Shown here piece by piece: positions 17,993-27,856 of a DNA stretch of 38,716 nt. A model generated the notes under the pieces. The model was not told where the DNA came from. It was given only the letters and a program-made list of their open reading frames with translations, and searched no databases. Numbering within the stretch: the stretch's first letter is position 1; each line of letters opens with the position of its first letter. The stretch comes from Caldifarciminota bacterium (GTDB taxonomy: Bacteria > Hydrothermota > 32-111). The stretch is from the NCBI GenBank assembly GCA_030592285.1, contig JAUVJU010000003.1, positions 1 to 38,716 of the forward strand, read 5' to 3'. A program made the translations under genes and the position numbers.

Positions 17993-18358
17993 TTATTTAT
18001 CTGTATGTTTTTCTTTGGGTGTATAATCCTTGTCTTTAAGGGATTCCTTTTCCAATGATTCCATAATTTCTTCAATATTGCCTTCAGCTCCCTTAATAAC
18101 ATCAATGCCAAATTGCTGGAAAAATCCGATTGCTCTACCGCCCACTCCCCTTACAATAAGTTTATTTACTTTTTTATTTGCAAGATAACGGGGTATATCT
18201 CCGGGACCATGACCTTCAAGAGGGTTTTTTTCAATACTAATTTCGTATTTTCCTTTTTCATCAATTTCAATATATGCAAAATGCGGTGCATGACCAAAGT
18301 GTTCACTAATAACTGATTTCTTTCCTTCATTTGTTAATACAGGAATTGCAATTTTCAT
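17993..18358 (-). CDS. Dinitrogenase iron-molybdenum cofactor (NifX/NifB-like, MTH1175-type) family protein
   Basis: MKIAIPVLTNEGKKSVISEHFGHAPHFAYIEI...GGRAIGFFQQFGIDVIKGAEGNIEEIM. Confidence 0.85.
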   Translation of the reverse strand: MKIAIPVLTNEGKKSVISEHFGHAPHFAYIEIDEKGKYEISIEKNPLEGHGPGDIPRYLANKKVNKLIVRGVGGRAIGFFQQFGIDVIKGAEGNIEEIMESLEKESLKDKDYTPKEKHTDK

Positions 18359-20714: not shown

Positions 20715-21125
20715 ATGAAATTATCAACAAGAGCAAGATATGGATTAAGAGCAATGATCGTATTAGCAGAGAATTTTGATAAAAAACCTGTATTATTAAA
20801 GGAAATTGCTAAAGAAGAGGGTTTATCAATGAAATATCTTGATCATATTCTAAGACCATTAAAAGCAAAAAATCTTGTAAGACGCGTTCATAATGGATAT
20901 GTGCTTACAAAAAAGCCAAGGAATATATCATCATATGAAATTATTTCAACACTTGAAGGAGATAATTATCCTGTTGAATGTGCTATGCATCCTGAAAATT
21001 GTGATAAATCAAAACAATGTGTAACACGGGATTTATGGAAAAAGATCAATGATTCATATATAGAGATTCTATCAAAAAGTACTCTTGCCGATTTCATTAA
21101 TAAAAAAGGAGAGAAAAATGGATAA
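20715..21125 (+). CDS. iscR: Rrf2-family regulator, IscR-like
   Basis: MKLSTRARYGLRAMIVLAE, Cys triad ECAMHPENCDKSKQC; overlaps iscS start. Confidence 0.88.
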   Translation: MKLSTRARYGLRAMIVLAENFDKKPVLLKEIAKEEGLSMKYLDHILRPLKAKNLVRRVHNGYVLTKKPRNISSYEIISTLEGDNYPVECAMHPENCDKSKQCVTRDLWKKINDSYIEILSKSTLADFINKKGEKNG

Positions 21126-22278
21126 AATATATTTTGATAATAGTTCCAGTACAAGAATGGATGAAAGAGTATTAGCAGAAATGGAACCATATCTATTTGA
21201 TTCATATGCTACCCCTACAAGTGATTTTGGCTATTCAATGGGAACAGATGCAAAGGATGCATTAAGGATATCGCGTGAAACTATTGCTAAAAGCATTAAT
21301 GCATTAACCAAGGAAATTGTATTTACTTCGGGATTTACAGAATCCAATAATTTGGCAATAAAAGGCATTCTTAAAAAACTAAAAAATAAAAAACACATAA
21401 TAATTTCCACAATTGAAGATTTTTCTATTCTCAATACTGTGAAAATGCTTGAAAAAGATGGATACAAAGTAACATATATTGGTGTTGATGAATATGGCTT
21501 ATTAAATATTAATGAATTGAAGAATGCCTTAAGGGATGATACAGCTATTGTTTCCATTCAGACAGCTAATCAGGAAATAGGTACATTGCAGAACATTAAA
21601 GAGATTGCAGAAATTGTTAAGAAAAAAAACATTCTTCTCCATACAGATGCCACACATGCATTTATGAGAATTCCTATTAATGTAAAGGAATGGAATCTTG
21701 ATTTAATGACCATTGATGCATATACAATTCATGGTCCCAGAGGGATTGGTGCCTTATATATAAAAAAAGGAACACCCATTAAAAAAATCATGGATGGCGG
21801 TTATCAGGAATTTGATAAAAGAGCAGGTCCGGAAAATATTCCATCTGCTGTTGGTTTTGCAAAAGCTGTAAAATTAGTTACTAAGGATGAAAATATTGAA
21901 TTAGAAAAGATGAGGGATTATATAATTAAAAGAATTATAAATGAAATCCCTGATACAATAATAAATGGTCATCCAACAAAAAGAATTCCTCACAATGCAA
22001 ATATAACATTTCATTATGTTGAGGGTGAATCAATCACACTTCATCTTGATATGAGAGGGATTGCCGTAAGTACAGGATCAGCATGTTTTAGCAAATCGCT
22101 TGAGGCAAGTCATGTTATTCTTGGAATTGGTGGAGATCATGAAAGAGCACATGGATCAGTAAGATTTACATTTGGTAGATTCAATACAAAGAAGGAGATT
22201 GATGAAACCGTCTTGGCATTAAAAGAAATCATTGAAATATTAAGAAAGATCAGTCCAATAAAAAAAGCGGAGGCATAA
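21118..22278 (+). CDS. Cysteine desulfurase-like protein (IscS/NifS family) lacking the PLP-lysine; probable pseudoenzyme or scaffold
   Basis: IYFDNSSSTRMDERVLAEMEPYL, ESNNLAIKG, STGSACFSKSLEASHV; expected GHK replaced by AYT in DLMTIDAYTIHGPRGIGALY. Confidence 0.88.
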   Translation: MDKIYFDNSSSTRMDERVLAEMEPYLFDSYATPTSDFGYSMGTDAKDALRISRETIAKSINALTKEIVFTSGFTESNNLAIKGILKKLKNKKHIIISTIEDFSILNTVKMLEKDGYKVTYIGVDEYGLLNINELKNALRDDTAIVSIQTANQEIGTLQNIKEIAEIVKKKNILLHTDATHAFMRIPINVKEWNLDLMTIDAYTIHGPRGIGALYIKKGTPIKKIMDGGYQEFDKRAGPENIPSAVGFAKAVKLVTKDENIELEKMRDYIIKRIINEIPDTIINGHPTKRIPHNANITFHYVEGESITLHLDMRGIAVSTGSACFSKSLEASHVILGIGGDHERAHGSVRFTFGRFNTKKEIDETVLALKEIIEILRKISPIKKAEA

Positions 22279-22914
22279 ATGAGCTTACCATATTCAGAAA
22301 AGGTAATTGAACATTTTAAACATCCAAGAAATGTTGGGAAAATAGACAATCCAGACGGAAAGGCAATAGAAGGCAGTGCTGCATGTGGAGATATGGTTGC
22401 AGTGTATATTAAGGTTGATAAGGATTCAAAAAGGATTGAGAATATTAAATTCCAATCATATGGATGTGCATCAAATATTGCAACAGGATCTATTGTTACA
22501 GAGCTTGCAAAGGGAAAAACAATTGATGAGGCAAAAGATATATCATGGCAGCAGGCAGCAGATGAACTGGGTGGATTACCTCCAATAAAACAACATTGTT
22601 CAGTACTTGCAGTTGATGGATTAAGGGCAGCCATTAATAATTATGAAGAGAAAAATGGGCTTATTAAGAATAAAAAAGCTACTACAATTGAAATCATTAA
22701 TAAGCGATTAAAACATGTAATGAACCCTATTACAGGATTGGATGTAGTAAAAACAAATTTAATAAAGAAGGTAGAATTAATAAATAAAGAAATAATTGTA
22801 ATTATGGATATTCCTTCAAATCATCAATTTGCAAATTCTCTAAAAGAAGACATTGTTGAAAAACTGGAAGCACTTTGGGATATTGAAAGAGTAAAAGTAG
22901 AATTTACAGAATAA
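22279..22914 (+). CDS. iscU: IscU/NifU-N Fe-S scaffold fused to C-terminal DUF59/MIP18-like domain
   Basis: ACGDMV, YGCASNIATGSIVTELAKGK, LPPIKQHCSVLAVDGLRAAI (three scaffold Cys); C-terminus IEIINKRLKHVMNPITGLDVVKTNLIKKVELINKEIIVIMDIP. Confidence 0.87.
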   Translation: MSLPYSEKVIEHFKHPRNVGKIDNPDGKAIEGSAACGDMVAVYIKVDKDSKRIENIKFQSYGCASNIATGSIVTELAKGKTIDEAKDISWQQAADELGGLPPIKQHCSVLAVDGLRAAINNYEEKNGLIKNKKATTIEIINKRLKHVMNPITGLDVVKTNLIKKVELINKEIIVIMDIPSNHQFANSLKEDIVEKLEALWDIERVKVEFTE

Positions 22915-23175: not shown

Positions 23176-23940
23176 ATGTTATATTTAGGAACAAGCGGAT
23201 ACCATTATAAAGAATGGATTGGAACTGTTTATCCTGAAACAACAAAGATAAAAACAATGTTTAATGAATATATTAATATCGGATTTAATACTGTTGAATT
23301 GAATTTCTCATATTACAGGCAGCCATCAGAAAAGATGATAAGAGATTTTTCCTTAAAGGCTCCTAAAGGGTTTAAATACATCATAAAGGCATATAAAGGA
23401 ATAACACATATATTTGAAGGCAATGAAATAATTAAAGATTACGTGAGTAATTACAGAAAAGGGAATGTGAAGAATAATTATGAAGGTGTATTATTTCAAT
23501 TTCCGGAATCATTTCATTTTAATAAGAAAAATTTGGAAATAATTAAAGAAAGAGTAAAGTATTTTGAAGATATTCCTTCATATATTGAATTCAGGGGTAG
23601 TGATTGGAATAGAGAAGATGTCTATGATTTTCTTAGAAAGAATAAAATGAATTATGTAATAACAGATTTACCAGAAAAAACCAATTTGCATAAAAGGGAA
23701 TTAAGATTAACTGATAAGAATGCATATTACCGTTTACATGGAAGAAATGATGACTGGTATAATCCAAAGGAACGGTATCATTATAATTATAATGATGATG
23801 AACTAAAAATATTTGCTTCGGAAATTAAGATGATTTCAAAAAAGGCAATAAATGTTTTTGTATTTTTTAATAATTGTCATGGTGGCTTTGCATTAACAAA
23901 TGCATTAAAAACAAAGCAAATGATTGGGGATTCTATTTAA
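23176..23940 (+). CDS. DUF72 family protein
   Basis: LYLGTSGYHYKEWIGTVYPE, FNTVELNFSYYRQPSEKM, AYYRLHGRNDDWY, VFVFFNNCHGGFALTNA. Confidence 0.9.
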   Translation: MLYLGTSGYHYKEWIGTVYPETTKIKTMFNEYINIGFNTVELNFSYYRQPSEKMIRDFSLKAPKGFKYIIKAYKGITHIFEGNEIIKDYVSNYRKGNVKNNYEGVLFQFPESFHFNKKNLEIIKERVKYFEDIPSYIEFRGSDWNREDVYDFLRKNKMNYVITDLPEKTNLHKRELRLTDKNAYYRLHGRNDDWYNPKERYHYNYNDDELKIFASEIKMISKKAINVFVFFNNCHGGFALTNALKTKQMIGDSI

Positions 23941-26900
23941 GAATATCAATCTTTATTTTGTATTTATAACTTTTTTTTATAGAATATAATTTTTTATACA
24001 ATTTTAATGATTTAATTTTATATGATTTTTTATTAGTTAATCGGTATAATTCAAAGAGGATCTCGGCCTGATTTTCATCATCTTTATACTTATTTAACAT
24101 ATTTTCTAAACAAGAAATTGCAGAATCATTATTTAAAAGTATATCTGATTTTACTTTTATAAATTCAATGTCAAAACTATGAGATTTGAAAAAATCGGTT
24201 AATGAATATTTTTCAATTTTCTTGATTATCTTATATATATTCTTATTCTTTTGTTCATAAAAGATCTCTGCTTTACATAAAAGACCTTTAATTAAACGAT
24301 CATCAACATTTAATGCTTTTGCTTTTTTAATCACTTTGTCTAAGTATTTGATTGCAATTTTGTATTCGCCTGTTATTTTATAAATTGAAACAAGATCAAA
24401 ATATATCGTAGAAAGTCTTTGATCTTCTTTCAATTCTTTTGCAAGAATTAGAGCTTTATTAAGATAATTAAGAGATTTTGATAGATCACCTATTTCAAAG
24501 TAAACATCACCAAGATTTGACAATACAGTTCTAATCCCACCTTTATCACCAATGCTCACTGCAAGATCATAGCTTAGATTATAAAATTTTAATGCTTCAG
24601 AATAATTTCCTTTTAATGTATAAATACTACCAAGATTATTTTGTAGAATTCTAATCACATATCTTTCTCCCAATTTATTGTTTTTTATGAGTAGTTTTTT
24701 GTATAAATCTTCAGCATTATCAAGATTTCCTTTAAGAAACTGGATATTTGCAATGTTGGTCAAAGCAGGAATTCTTTTCAGTCCCATTTTATTTGATATT
24801 TTTTTACTTTTATTAAAAAGCATAAGAGCTTTACTATAATTACCTTTATATTGATATATTAAGCCCATATTATTATATGTTAAGGCCTTATCAAATAGAA
24901 GTTTCTTCTCGCTTTTCTCGTTTTTTTCAATAAACAATAAATTCATATTGTAATAATACAATGCTTTTTCAAAATTGCCCAAATTACCATAAGCAATGCC
25001 ATAATTATTGTAAGTCCCCGAAATACCAACTTTTTCATTAGTCTTATTATATTTTTCTAAAGCCCTTTTAAATAACTTAATTGCATATTCATTATTGCCC
25101 AATCTTATTGATATATACCCATGTCTGTTTTCGGCATCTGCAATAATTAATTCATTTTTCAATTTATTCCCAATTCTTTTTATAGTTTTATAGATTTCAA
25201 TAGATTCTTTCCATCTACCTATTATTTCATAAATCTCCCCAATCTTCATTTTAATTGAAACAATTTTTCTGTTTTTCTTTTCATATTTTAATAATCTTTC
25301 ATATAGGGAAACAGCATCCTCATTTTTAAAATTTTCCTTTGCAAAATCACCGGCTAATAATAAATATTGTTTTGCTTCATTTTTCATTTCTGCCTGTTCA
25401 TAATGAAAAGCAATATCACTATAAAAATTTTTATTATTAATAAAGACCTTTTCCATTGTAATGGCAGCAATTTTATGCAATTTTTTTAACTGCTTTTTCA
25501 TTTGCATATTGTATGCAGCATCACGAAGCAAGCTATGTTTGAATAAATATTTTATTTGGGAAACAGCATTCCACAAATTTTCCTGTTCTCCCGTTTTCAA
25601 GATGGGTTTAATATTACTTTTACCTGATAGCATTGATGATAAAATATTAATATTAAATTCATTTCCAAGCACTGAGGCACTTTGAATAAGATTTCTTAAT
25701 TTTTGCGATAATCTATCTATTCGTGAAATTAGAATGGGATATATTCCCGAAGGAATATCAATATTAACTGCTTTTAATGAATATATATTGTTTTTTAATT
25801 CAATATATCTATTTTCAAATAAATACAAACAGAACTGTTCCATAAAAAAAGGATTGCTCTGCGTTTTTTTAAGGATCAAAGAATGCAATTTCTTATCAGT
25901 TTCATATCCTAACTGTAATTTCACAAATTCCTCAGTTTCTTCAGACTCAATTTTTTTAAGAATAATTTCTGAAACAAAAATATCCTTAATCGCCAACCTT
26001 GGTTTTTCGCCATTATCAAAGAATCTACTTGAAACCAAAAAAACACAAGGAAATTGATTTATATCATTGAATAATTGTAATAATAATTTATTTGAATCAG
26101 AATCCATCCATTGCAAATCCTCAATAATAATAATAAGCGGCTTGATGAGTGACAGGATCTTTATAAATGATATTATTCCAATAAGAAGATTATTAAACTT
26201 TGCCTTTGGATCAAGGGATAAAAGGTGGGATTCTTTGGTCTTAATATTCAAAAACTCGGCAATGATTTCTCTTCTGTCAATCAATTCGCGAAGTAATGCT
26301 TTTGCTTTTCTAGTATGAATTTTCCCTGCTGTTTCAATTAATTCATCAAATTTAGTATTAAATAATTTATTATTTTCTTTATTGGAATTGCTTTCATTTA
26401 CAGAAAAATATTTTTTAAGCATATATTCAAAAGGATTTAAACTTTTTTTAAGAATATTATCAGTTTTAAGAATAATCCTATTTGATTTTGATTTATACTC
26501 TTCAATAGAATTAAATATAATTCTTGTTTTACCAATACCAACATCTCCGTATACATAAACCAAGCCGCCATATTTGTTATTATTAATATGATTTAAGTGT
26601 TTAGAAATTAATTTTGATTCCCTTTTTCTGCCAACAAATTTTCCAGAGTAAAAAAACTCATCCTGAATATTTAGATTTCCAAGTAATTTATACAATTGGG
26701 TTTCTTTTGATTTTCCTTTAAAAGTAATGCTTCCTAAATACTCAATGTTATGGGACATCTGAATTTTTCTTCCTACATTTTCAGAAATCCATATTTCTCC
26801 CCAATCTGCTTTACTCATAAATCTTGCAGCCAAATTGACATTGTCACCCAAAACAGTATAAGTTGCTCTTATATTAGATCCAACAAGACCGGCATATACG

Positions 26901-27856
26901 GTTCCATAGGATAAGCCGGCCTTTATATCATTCCCATACAATTTTTTTATTTCCAAAACAAAGTCAATTGCCCGTATCATATTATTCTCATGTGAAATAG
27001 GAGCACCAAATAGTATAAGTACAAGATTATTCTTATCTCCAAAATCCAGTAAATTAAAATAACCGCCATAATTATCAGATAATGTAATGATTGTTGTGAT
27101 GAATTCATTTAATTTTTTAAAATCACTTAATTTCTTAAATTGCATAAAAACAGATACTACTTGTCTAAACTCACTCTTATTTTTATTTAATACATTGAAG
27201 GAAAAATACTGATTCAAAATCTTTTTGGAAATAATTTGCTTTTTAGGATGAAATGATTGTGATTTGACTTTATATTGTTTAAGTTTGAAAAAGCCATTCC
27301 TATTTTTAATTAATATTTTTTTTGTTTTCAATAATTTTGCAGCAGAACCATGTAATAATATTTCTCCAGGTTTTGTACAATGTTCTGCATTAACAGCATT
27401 ATTTATTGAATTACCCTTAAAAAAGAATGTTCTATGGTTTTCTTTACCAAGAATTCCCCAATTTAATAAACCATGTGAAATTCCAATTTTTAATGAAATT
27501 GATAAGCCCTTTATAAGCTTGGATTTGATCTTATAATTAGTATAGATATTCTGGATCTCACAGGCACAGTTAGAAACGGTATCCATTGCTGTATTAGGAA
27601 AGATTGCTGTAAAAGCATCGCCTGCAAAAGTAGAAATAAAACCATTGTTTGAGTATATTACATCAATCATTTGACCAAACACCTTGTTTATTATTGAAGA
27701 TAATTCTTCTGCTCCTGCTTTTCCATGAGAAGAAAGCTGTTCGGTTATGGAAGTGAACCCGGAAATATCAAGAAACATAACGGATGCCTTAAACGAACCA
27801 TTATACTCCTTGTGTTTTTCCTTTTCGGCAATGAATACAGGAATATAATTTATCAT
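23933..27856 (-). CDS. Soluble adenylyl cyclase-like protein: two class III cyclase domains, AAA ATPase, TPR repeats
   Basis: FLDISGFTSITEQL...GDAFTAIFP; VLGDNVNLAARFMSKA; YVYGDVGIGKTRIIF Walker A; IIEDLQWMDSDSN; multiple TPRs (NNYGIAYGNLGNFEKALYYY). Confidence 0.9.
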   Translation of the reverse strand: MINYIPVFIAEKEKHKEYNGSFKASVMFLDISGFTSITEQLSSHGKAGAEELSSIINKVFGQMIDVIYSNNGFISTFAGDAFTAIFPNTAMDTVSNCACEIQNIYTNYKIKSKLIKGLSISLKIGISHGLLNWGILGKENHRTFFFKGNSINNAVNAEHCTKPGEILLHGSAAKLLKTKKILIKNRNGFFKLKQYKVKSQSFHPKKQIISKKILNQYFSFNVLNKNKSEFRQVVSVFMQFKKLSDFKKLNEFITTIITLSDNYGGYFNLLDFGDKNNLVLILFGAPISHENNMIRAIDFVLEIKKLYGNDIKAGLSYGTVYAGLVGSNIRATYTVLGDNVNLAARFMSKADWGEIWISENVGRKIQMSHNIEYLGSITFKGKSKETQLYKLLGNLNIQDEFFYSGKFVGRKRESKLISKHLNHINNNKYGGLVYVYGDVGIGKTRIIFNSIEEYKSKSNRIILKTDNILKKSLNPFEYMLKKYFSVNESNSNKENNKLFNTKFDELIETAGKIHTRKAKALLRELIDRREIIAEFLNIKTKESHLLSLDPKAKFNNLLIGIISFIKILSLIKPLIIIIEDLQWMDSDSNKLLLQLFNDINQFPCVFLVSSRFFDNGEKPRLAIKDIFVSEIILKKIESEETEEFVKLQLGYETDKKLHSLILKKTQSNPFFMEQFCLYLFENRYIELKNNIYSLKAVNIDIPSGIYPILISRIDRLSQKLRNLIQSASVLGNEFNINILSSMLSGKSNIKPILKTGEQENLWNAVSQIKYLFKHSLLRDAAYNMQMKKQLKKLHKIAAITMEKVFINNKNFYSDIAFHYEQAEMKNEAKQYLLLAGDFAKENFKNEDAVSLYERLLKYEKKNRKIVSIKMKIGEIYEIIGRWKESIEIYKTIKRIGNKLKNELIIADAENRHGYISIRLGNNEYAIKLFKRALEKYNKTNEKVGISGTYNNYGIAYGNLGNFEKALYYYNMNLLFIEKNEKSEKKLLFDKALTYNNMGLIYQYKGNYSKALMLFNKSKKISNKMGLKRIPALTNIANIQFLKGNLDNAEDLYKKLLIKNNKLGERYVIRILQNNLGSIYTLKGNYSEALKFYNLSYDLAVSIGDKGGIRTVLSNLGDVYFEIGDLSKSLNYLNKALILAKELKEDQRLSTIYFDLVSIYKITGEYKIAIKYLDKVIKKAKALNVDDRLIKGLLCKAEIFYEQKNKNIYKIIKKIEKYSLTDFFKSHSFDIEFIKVKSDILLNNDSAISCLENMLNKYKDDENQAEILFELYRLTNKKSYKIKSLKLYKKLYSIKKSYKYKIKIDILK

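Follow-up and report, generated by a model that had tools for sequence, protein, structure and literature searches.

In the window, a stretch of 38,716 nucleotides on contig JAUVJU010000003.1 of a Caldifarciminota bacterium, a gene encoding an IscS-like protein (P0001) that lacks the Schiff-base lysine of cysteine desulfurases lies directly upstream of an iscU gene. This arrangement raises the question of what such a protein contributes to cluster assembly if it does not release sulfur from cysteine, and of where the sulfur would then come from. The genes and residues concerned are listed in Table 1.

Table 1. Genes and residues of the iscS-iscU locus, with their positions in the window
Feature	Position	Strand	Basis
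Rrf2-family (IscR/CymR-like) regulator gene, running a few bases into the IscS gene	20715..21125	+	domain match
IscS-fold protein P0001, Lys-less, predicted pseudo-cysteine desulfurase, M. acetivorans IscS1 orthologue, 386 aa	21118..22278	+	reading frame, homology, AlphaFold pLDDT 92.9
Asp101, codon GAT, in place of the PLP-ring His (E. coli H104)	21418..21420	+	Asp in 37/37 clade members
His180 in place of E. coli Q183 (PLP O3' ligand)	21655..21657	+	His in 18/18 clade loci
Thr203, codon ACA, at the Schiff-base Lys site (E. coli K206)	21724..21726	+	E. coli IscS alignment
Pro238 in place of E. coli T243 (PLP phosphate)	21829..21831	+	clade: L/V/P/A/I
Cys323, loop cysteine equivalent to E. coli C328 (persulfide/cluster ligand)	22084..22086	+	invariant in clade
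IscU scaffold retaining three Cys and Asp, with a fused, Cys-free PF01883 FeS_assembly_P/DUF59 domain at its C-terminus	22279..22914	+	domain match

The initial annotation had reported the reading frame, the codons for Thr203 and Asp101, Tyr202 before Thr203 and an ANQEIG motif, and re-reading of the sequence agreed with it on every point. It had also described the persulfide Cys loop and the three IscU cysteines as kept; Cys323, within the loop segment STGSACFSKSLEASHV, is present in P0001 and invariant in its clade, and the CGD, GC and HC motifs of IscU are intact. The present analysis adds a wider loss at the PLP site, the fusion of IscU to DUF59 and a second iscS-iscU pair in the same genome. 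Alignment with E. coli IscS revealed the PLP-site changes Q183 to H180, T243 to P238, A75 to F73, S203 to D200 and H205 to Y202, and the retention of D180, T76, R354 and C328 as D177, T74, R349 and C323, respectively. Among the clade loci, the additional changes Phe73, Asp200 and Tyr202 are confined to the window protein. In E. coli IscS, T76, S203, H205 and T243 are taken here, from the IscS structure, to have roles in holding the PLP phosphate. The activity of the E. coli enzyme requires each of H104, D180, Q183, K206 and C328 (PMC9978102), of which H104, Q183 and K206 are gone from the clade. These losses are read directly from the sequences. The loss of the Schiff-base Lys, ring-stacking His, O3' ligand and most of the phosphate ligands leads us to infer that P0001 would be unable to take sulfur from cysteine; a desulfurase function is very unlikely.

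The fold of P0001 is predicted to be normal. The protein matches the class V aminotransferase family (PF00266, E 1e-70), and its AlphaFold model (mean pLDDT 92.9) has an ordinary IscS fold in which, within the protein body, pLDDT is below 50 only at the Cys loop 323-327. In Foldseek comparisons, the model showed TM scores of 0.93-0.95 to NFS1/IscS; NFS1 in ISC complexes gave the best structural matches, followed by A. fulgidus IscS-IscU, and the model can be superposed on IscS-IscU complexes including 4eb5 and 4eb7. The suggested likeness to A. fulgidus IscS was also borne out by sequence, as this protein is the best PDB match of P0001 (344 bits). Thr203, the other altered PLP ligands and the intact predicted fold fit the earlier view of a protein that conserves the IscS fold without Lys-based PLP chemistry. 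The NCBIfam equivalog cut-off was rejected as a discriminator: P0001 scores 442.5 against a NifS cut-off of 530.75, and the Lys-bearing paralogue and an Archaeoglobus-type protein also fall short.

The adjacent IscU carries a fused PF01883 domain in every case in the set of 37 clade sequences. Comparison of 34 sequences showed a Cys-free fused DUF59 domain in every one, and none had lost any of the three IscU cysteine motifs. DUF59 counts obtained with a second-round profile in the neighbour survey were left out because the profile also caught IscU. Two other genes of the window encode a PF02579 dinitrogenase iron-molybdenum cofactor-type protein (17993-18358), about 2.8 kb upstream on the opposite strand with no nif genes seen nearby, and a 1307-aa adenylate/guanylate cyclase-AAA-TPR protein in which the cyclase domain was matched twice (23933-27856).

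The clade to which P0001 belongs contains M. acetivorans IscS1 (MA0808), proteins of Heimdallarchaeota and Chloroflexi, and that of one other bacterium of the window's phylum. A scan of species genomes placed clade members in Methanosarcinaceae, Heimdallarchaeota and Chloroflexi (including Dehalococcoidales and Anaerolineales) at 56-64% identity, a level at which 72 of 100 Methanosarcinaceae genomes gave a match. Among 60 genomes of the same phylum, a close orthologue was found in only one (G023, from another family), with 63% identity and Thr at the Lys site; 147 same-phylum genomes yielded one further match below E 1e-125, which is Lys-bearing and 51% identical. A viral scan returned relatives at 34% identity only. 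In the M. acetivorans clade member STGSACFS lies at residue 318 and the mass is 42.2 kDa, and its adjacent IscU has C45 and D47; the residue-318 motif, the mass and C45/D47 agree with those published for MA0808 (IscS1) and MA0807 (IscU1, 24.2 kDa) (PMC7585200).

In the 37 clade sequences, window included, the Lys position is occupied by Thr in 35, Leu in one and Arg in one, and by Lys in none. The conservation of Thr and the persistence of the loss in orthologues, both raised as checks by the initial annotation, thus leave no place for a sequencing artefact or a recent point mutation as its source. Asp101, Gln152 and Cys323 are unchanged in 37/37 sequences, R349 is invariant alongside Cys323, and the losses at the PLP site are fixed clade-wide. 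The median dN/dS of clade genes was 0.042 over 60 pairs, the window gene being in none of these as its synonymous sites are saturated. The clade genes are under strong purifying selection.

A tree was built from an alignment with the active-site columns excluded and without A. fulgidus IscS among its rows. The 18 clade rows, including P0001 and MA0808, are monophyletic (support 100/100) and are nested in a 34-row group (100/98) whose remaining members are mostly Lys-bearing; the IscU-DUF59 fusion is common to this group. The Archaeoglobus-type Lys-to-Asp rows make up a group of their own, as do the Q/S/T rows (100/99 for each), and P0001 falls outside the Lys-to-Asp clade. On the simplest reading of these sequences, the P0001 clade and the Archaeoglobus type lost Lys independently; by itself, the tree is compatible with loss or regain. 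Descent of P0001 from an A. fulgidus-type IscS was rejected on the basis of the separate clades. The end branch of P0001 is long (0.40-0.47).

Further non-Lys states, Arg and Leu, occur inside the sister group. In four class relatives, G005-G008 (L021, L025, L028 and L032), IscS has Arg at the Lys site and Glu or Asp at the stacking-His position, and adjoins IscU-DUF59 where the contig extends far enough. Three of these four genomes have a full-length Lys-bearing SufS-like protein; G008 has two partial matches, which may represent one protein. Sister-group proteins at L014, L017, L020 and L022 keep Lys and have lost the stacking His (Gly, Ala or Asn), and their genes are followed by a TusA-like gene in which a C-GE-C motif replaces CPxP. 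A third Lys-less IscS clade of the same phylum (L223, L228, L243, L235, L237, L241, L244 and L211) has Ser, Thr or Gln at the Lys site, keeps the His and is mostly without TusA.

Sulfur-carrier genes adjoin most of the related loci. TusA was counted as a neighbour of IscS when it lay on the same strand no more than 3 kb away; by this measure 17 of 18 clade loci have TusA, and 16-17 of 18 have a DsrE2-like gene. The doubtful DsrE2 match, at L047, looks spurious, and the DsrE2 of that genome lies on another contig. PF13686 and PF01206 were confirmed on example neighbours. Archaeoglobus-type (Lys-to-Asp) loci have TusA in 13/16 cases and a DsrE-type gene, of a different DsrE subtype, in 10/16. 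CPxP is present in all TusA matches of these two Lys-less clades. Neither type of neighbour was found at any of 102 Lys-bearing IscS loci outside the sister group, 82 of which are flanked by 1 kb or more on either side. TusA or TusA-like genes are also present in part of the Lys-keeping sister group (six of nine TusA matches there are without CPxP), so the TusA neighbour may predate the loss of Lys in the P0001 lineage. In the Q/S/T clade, TusA was found in one of eight loci. The uncorrected Fisher test of Lys loss against TusA gave p 9e-14 (31/47 vs 9/114), which is not to be taken as independent evidence; a phylogeny-corrected test had four usable pairs and did not reach significance. The association rests on two large clades. 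No report of a link between Lys-less IscS and sulfur-carrier genes was found in the literature. As TusA and DsrE2 adjoin the genes in nearly all relatives, the neighbourhoods, like the fusion a matter of direct reading from sequence, favour delivery of persulfide no less than a role as cluster ligand alone.

The source genome (G000; assembly of 2.14 Mb, 96.65% complete) differs from those of the relatives, being the sole clade member without TusA or DsrE2 beside the IscS gene. Whole-genome searches for TusA, the SufB/D core and DsrE2 found none in it, although the same searches gave matches in 11, 14 and 6, respectively, of 14 known genomes used as positive controls. SUF was therefore rejected as its sulfur route, since the SufB/D core was not found. 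The search for a canonical desulfurase proposed by the initial annotation was successful: contig C3 encodes an IscS with the normal GHK lysine motif, in SASGHKFHAPKG, together with its own IscU. Near-identical copies of the start of this canonical IscS are found at C3:481-1632 (L001) and C52:1-357 (L003); the C52 copy ends at the contig edge and may reflect strain variation or duplication. Because the genome holds this desulfurase, sulfur need not come from free sulfide. Of the earlier suggestion that sulfur comes from sulfide or another enzyme, the second source is possible and free sulfide is not required.

The orthologue-bearing genome of the same phylum, G023, has a different complement. 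No IscS-type protein other than the Lys-less one was found in it, nor was a SufS or any other cysteine desulfurase; the assembly is 94% complete, so that six percent of the genome may be missing. By sequence inspection, its other PF00266 matches are an AGXT-like aminotransferase, glycine dehydrogenase subunits and a Cys/Met-metabolism enzyme. A SufB-like protein adjoins an ABC ATPase (SMS-like) in G023. The genes next in the cluster at its locus (L202, 2133-3646) encode a NifU C-terminal domain protein, an Rrf2 regulator, a glutaredoxin and a ferredoxin-thioredoxin reductase beta/rubredoxin-like fusion.

The reading preferred here, to which we give about an even chance, is that P0001 is a PLP-free partner of IscU that relays sulfur made elsewhere via Cys323. 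P0001, predicted to be without PLP chemistry, still has the IscS fold, a putative surface for contact with IscU and the mobile Cys323 loop, and would dock on the IscU-DUF59 fusion. Cys323 would most likely accept persulfide sulfur and present it to the cluster forming on IscU, and might also serve as a temporary cluster ligand. In most relatives, the co-encoded TusA/DsrE2 carriers would be the donor. That route would not be workable as such in the source organism because its genome has neither carrier, and there the donor may be the canonical IscS of contig C3, sulfide or another source.

A possible reading, at clearly less than an even chance, is that P0001 is a cluster-ligand partner only, with the loop Cys as the last ligand of the IscU [2Fe-2S] cluster, free sulfide supplied by an anoxic habitat and no persulfide relay. 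The naturally Lys-less A. fulgidus IscS is inactive and provides a Cys ligand in the IscS-IscU structure (4eb5/4eb7), and the same role has been suggested for M. acetivorans IscS1 (PMC7585200); IscU is fed by sulfide in iscS-minus E. coli under anoxia (PMC13015791), as is SMS (PMC12192291), and the lack of TusA and DsrE2 in the source genome is in keeping with this. However, a ligand-only role leaves unexplained the tie of TusA/DsrE to two separate Lys-less clades and its absence beside the 102 Lys-bearing loci. It is most improbable that P0001 is still an active PLP enzyme, with PLP bound non-covalently or on another Lys. The Asp of PLP N1 (D177), Thr74 and Arg349 are kept, and E. coli IscS K206A retains some PLP, but that variant is inactive (PMC9978102), the H104 and Q183 ligands are lost, T243, S203, H205 and A75 at the phosphate site are changed, and no conserved Lys was seen near the Schiff-base motif in the clade alignments.

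Relaxed decay of a functionless paralogue, in a genome that has a canonical IscS-IscU pair and lacks the carrier genes, would account for the long end branch, for Tyr202, Asp200 and Phe73 being unique to P0001 and for the missing TusA/DsrE2. It is nevertheless highly improbable, as the frame is full-length, identity to archaeal orthologues reaches 66%, Asp101, Gln152, His180 and Cys323 are kept, the model is confident, and the IscU fusion and gene order are intact. In the relatives dN/dS is low, which upholds the earlier judgement that this is not simple decay. A contig binned into the wrong genome, with the gene belonging to another organism, would explain why no close orthologue was found in four other genomes of the window's family; this is hardly credible given the orthologue in a second genome of the phylum and the GC content of 32% at 21-22.5 kb, inside the window's range. 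The neighbouring PhoU, for which the family and the phylum offer homologues at 43-51% identity, argues weakly in the same direction.

The relay reading can be tentatively widened: Lys-less IscS proteins may be a class of PLP-free persulfide adaptors that evolved at least two times and pass sulfur from TusA/DsrE-type carriers to IscU, P0001 being a member with a different donor. If so, the usual flow from IscS to TusA would be reversed, and ISC-type cluster building would be independent of cysteine. That A. fulgidus IscS and M. acetivorans IscS1 lack Lys has been published, as has the idea of a cluster-ligand role; this little-studied case is extended here to a bacterial MAG, and the clade now spans archaea, Chloroflexi and another bacterium. 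The entire PLP site, not Lys alone, appears to have been given up and the new state held under selection, and the gene neighbourhoods suggest a sulfur source for Lys-less systems. How anaerobes without cysteine desulfurase build clusters is a question that the TusA-DsrE2-IscS*-IscU gene cluster makes testable.

Among known systems, the closest is IscS1/IscU1 of M. acetivorans (MA0808/MA0807), in which the Lys absence has been reported and an action like that of A. fulgidus IscS suggested (PMC7585200). IscS1 is in the same clade as P0001 (62% identity), with Lys replaced by Thr and His by Asp; the FS Cys loop and a two-residue insert are also shared with the IscS1 group. IscU1, like the window IscU, has a fused DUF59 domain, and IscU is about 210-220 aa long. 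The two systems differ in that DsrE2 and TusA adjoin the M. acetivorans pair, whereas the window genome has neither, and in the extra phosphate-site changes Phe73, Asp200 and Tyr202 of P0001. The carrier neighbours are usual in the IscS1 group, though not a known requirement for it. A. fulgidus IscS (4eb5, 4eb7, 4hvk; D199) resembles P0001 in the natural absence of Lys and the retention of the loop Cys, but has Asp instead of Thr, keeps the stacking His and lacks the two-residue insert. By its Lys-site motif, SSNDIYGPKG, it is placed in the separate Lys-to-Asp clade, in which the phosphate Thr, unlike in P0001, is kept. Canonical IscS/NifS proteins (E. coli IscS and the C3 IscS) share with P0001 the fold, the equivalents of Asp180, Thr76, Arg354 and Cys328, and an adjacent iscU, whereas P0001 has lost Lys, the His that stacks on PLP, Gln183 and the phosphate ligand T243, and its IscU is fused to DUF59. 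The E. coli isc operon, like the window, has an Rrf2-family regulator upstream.
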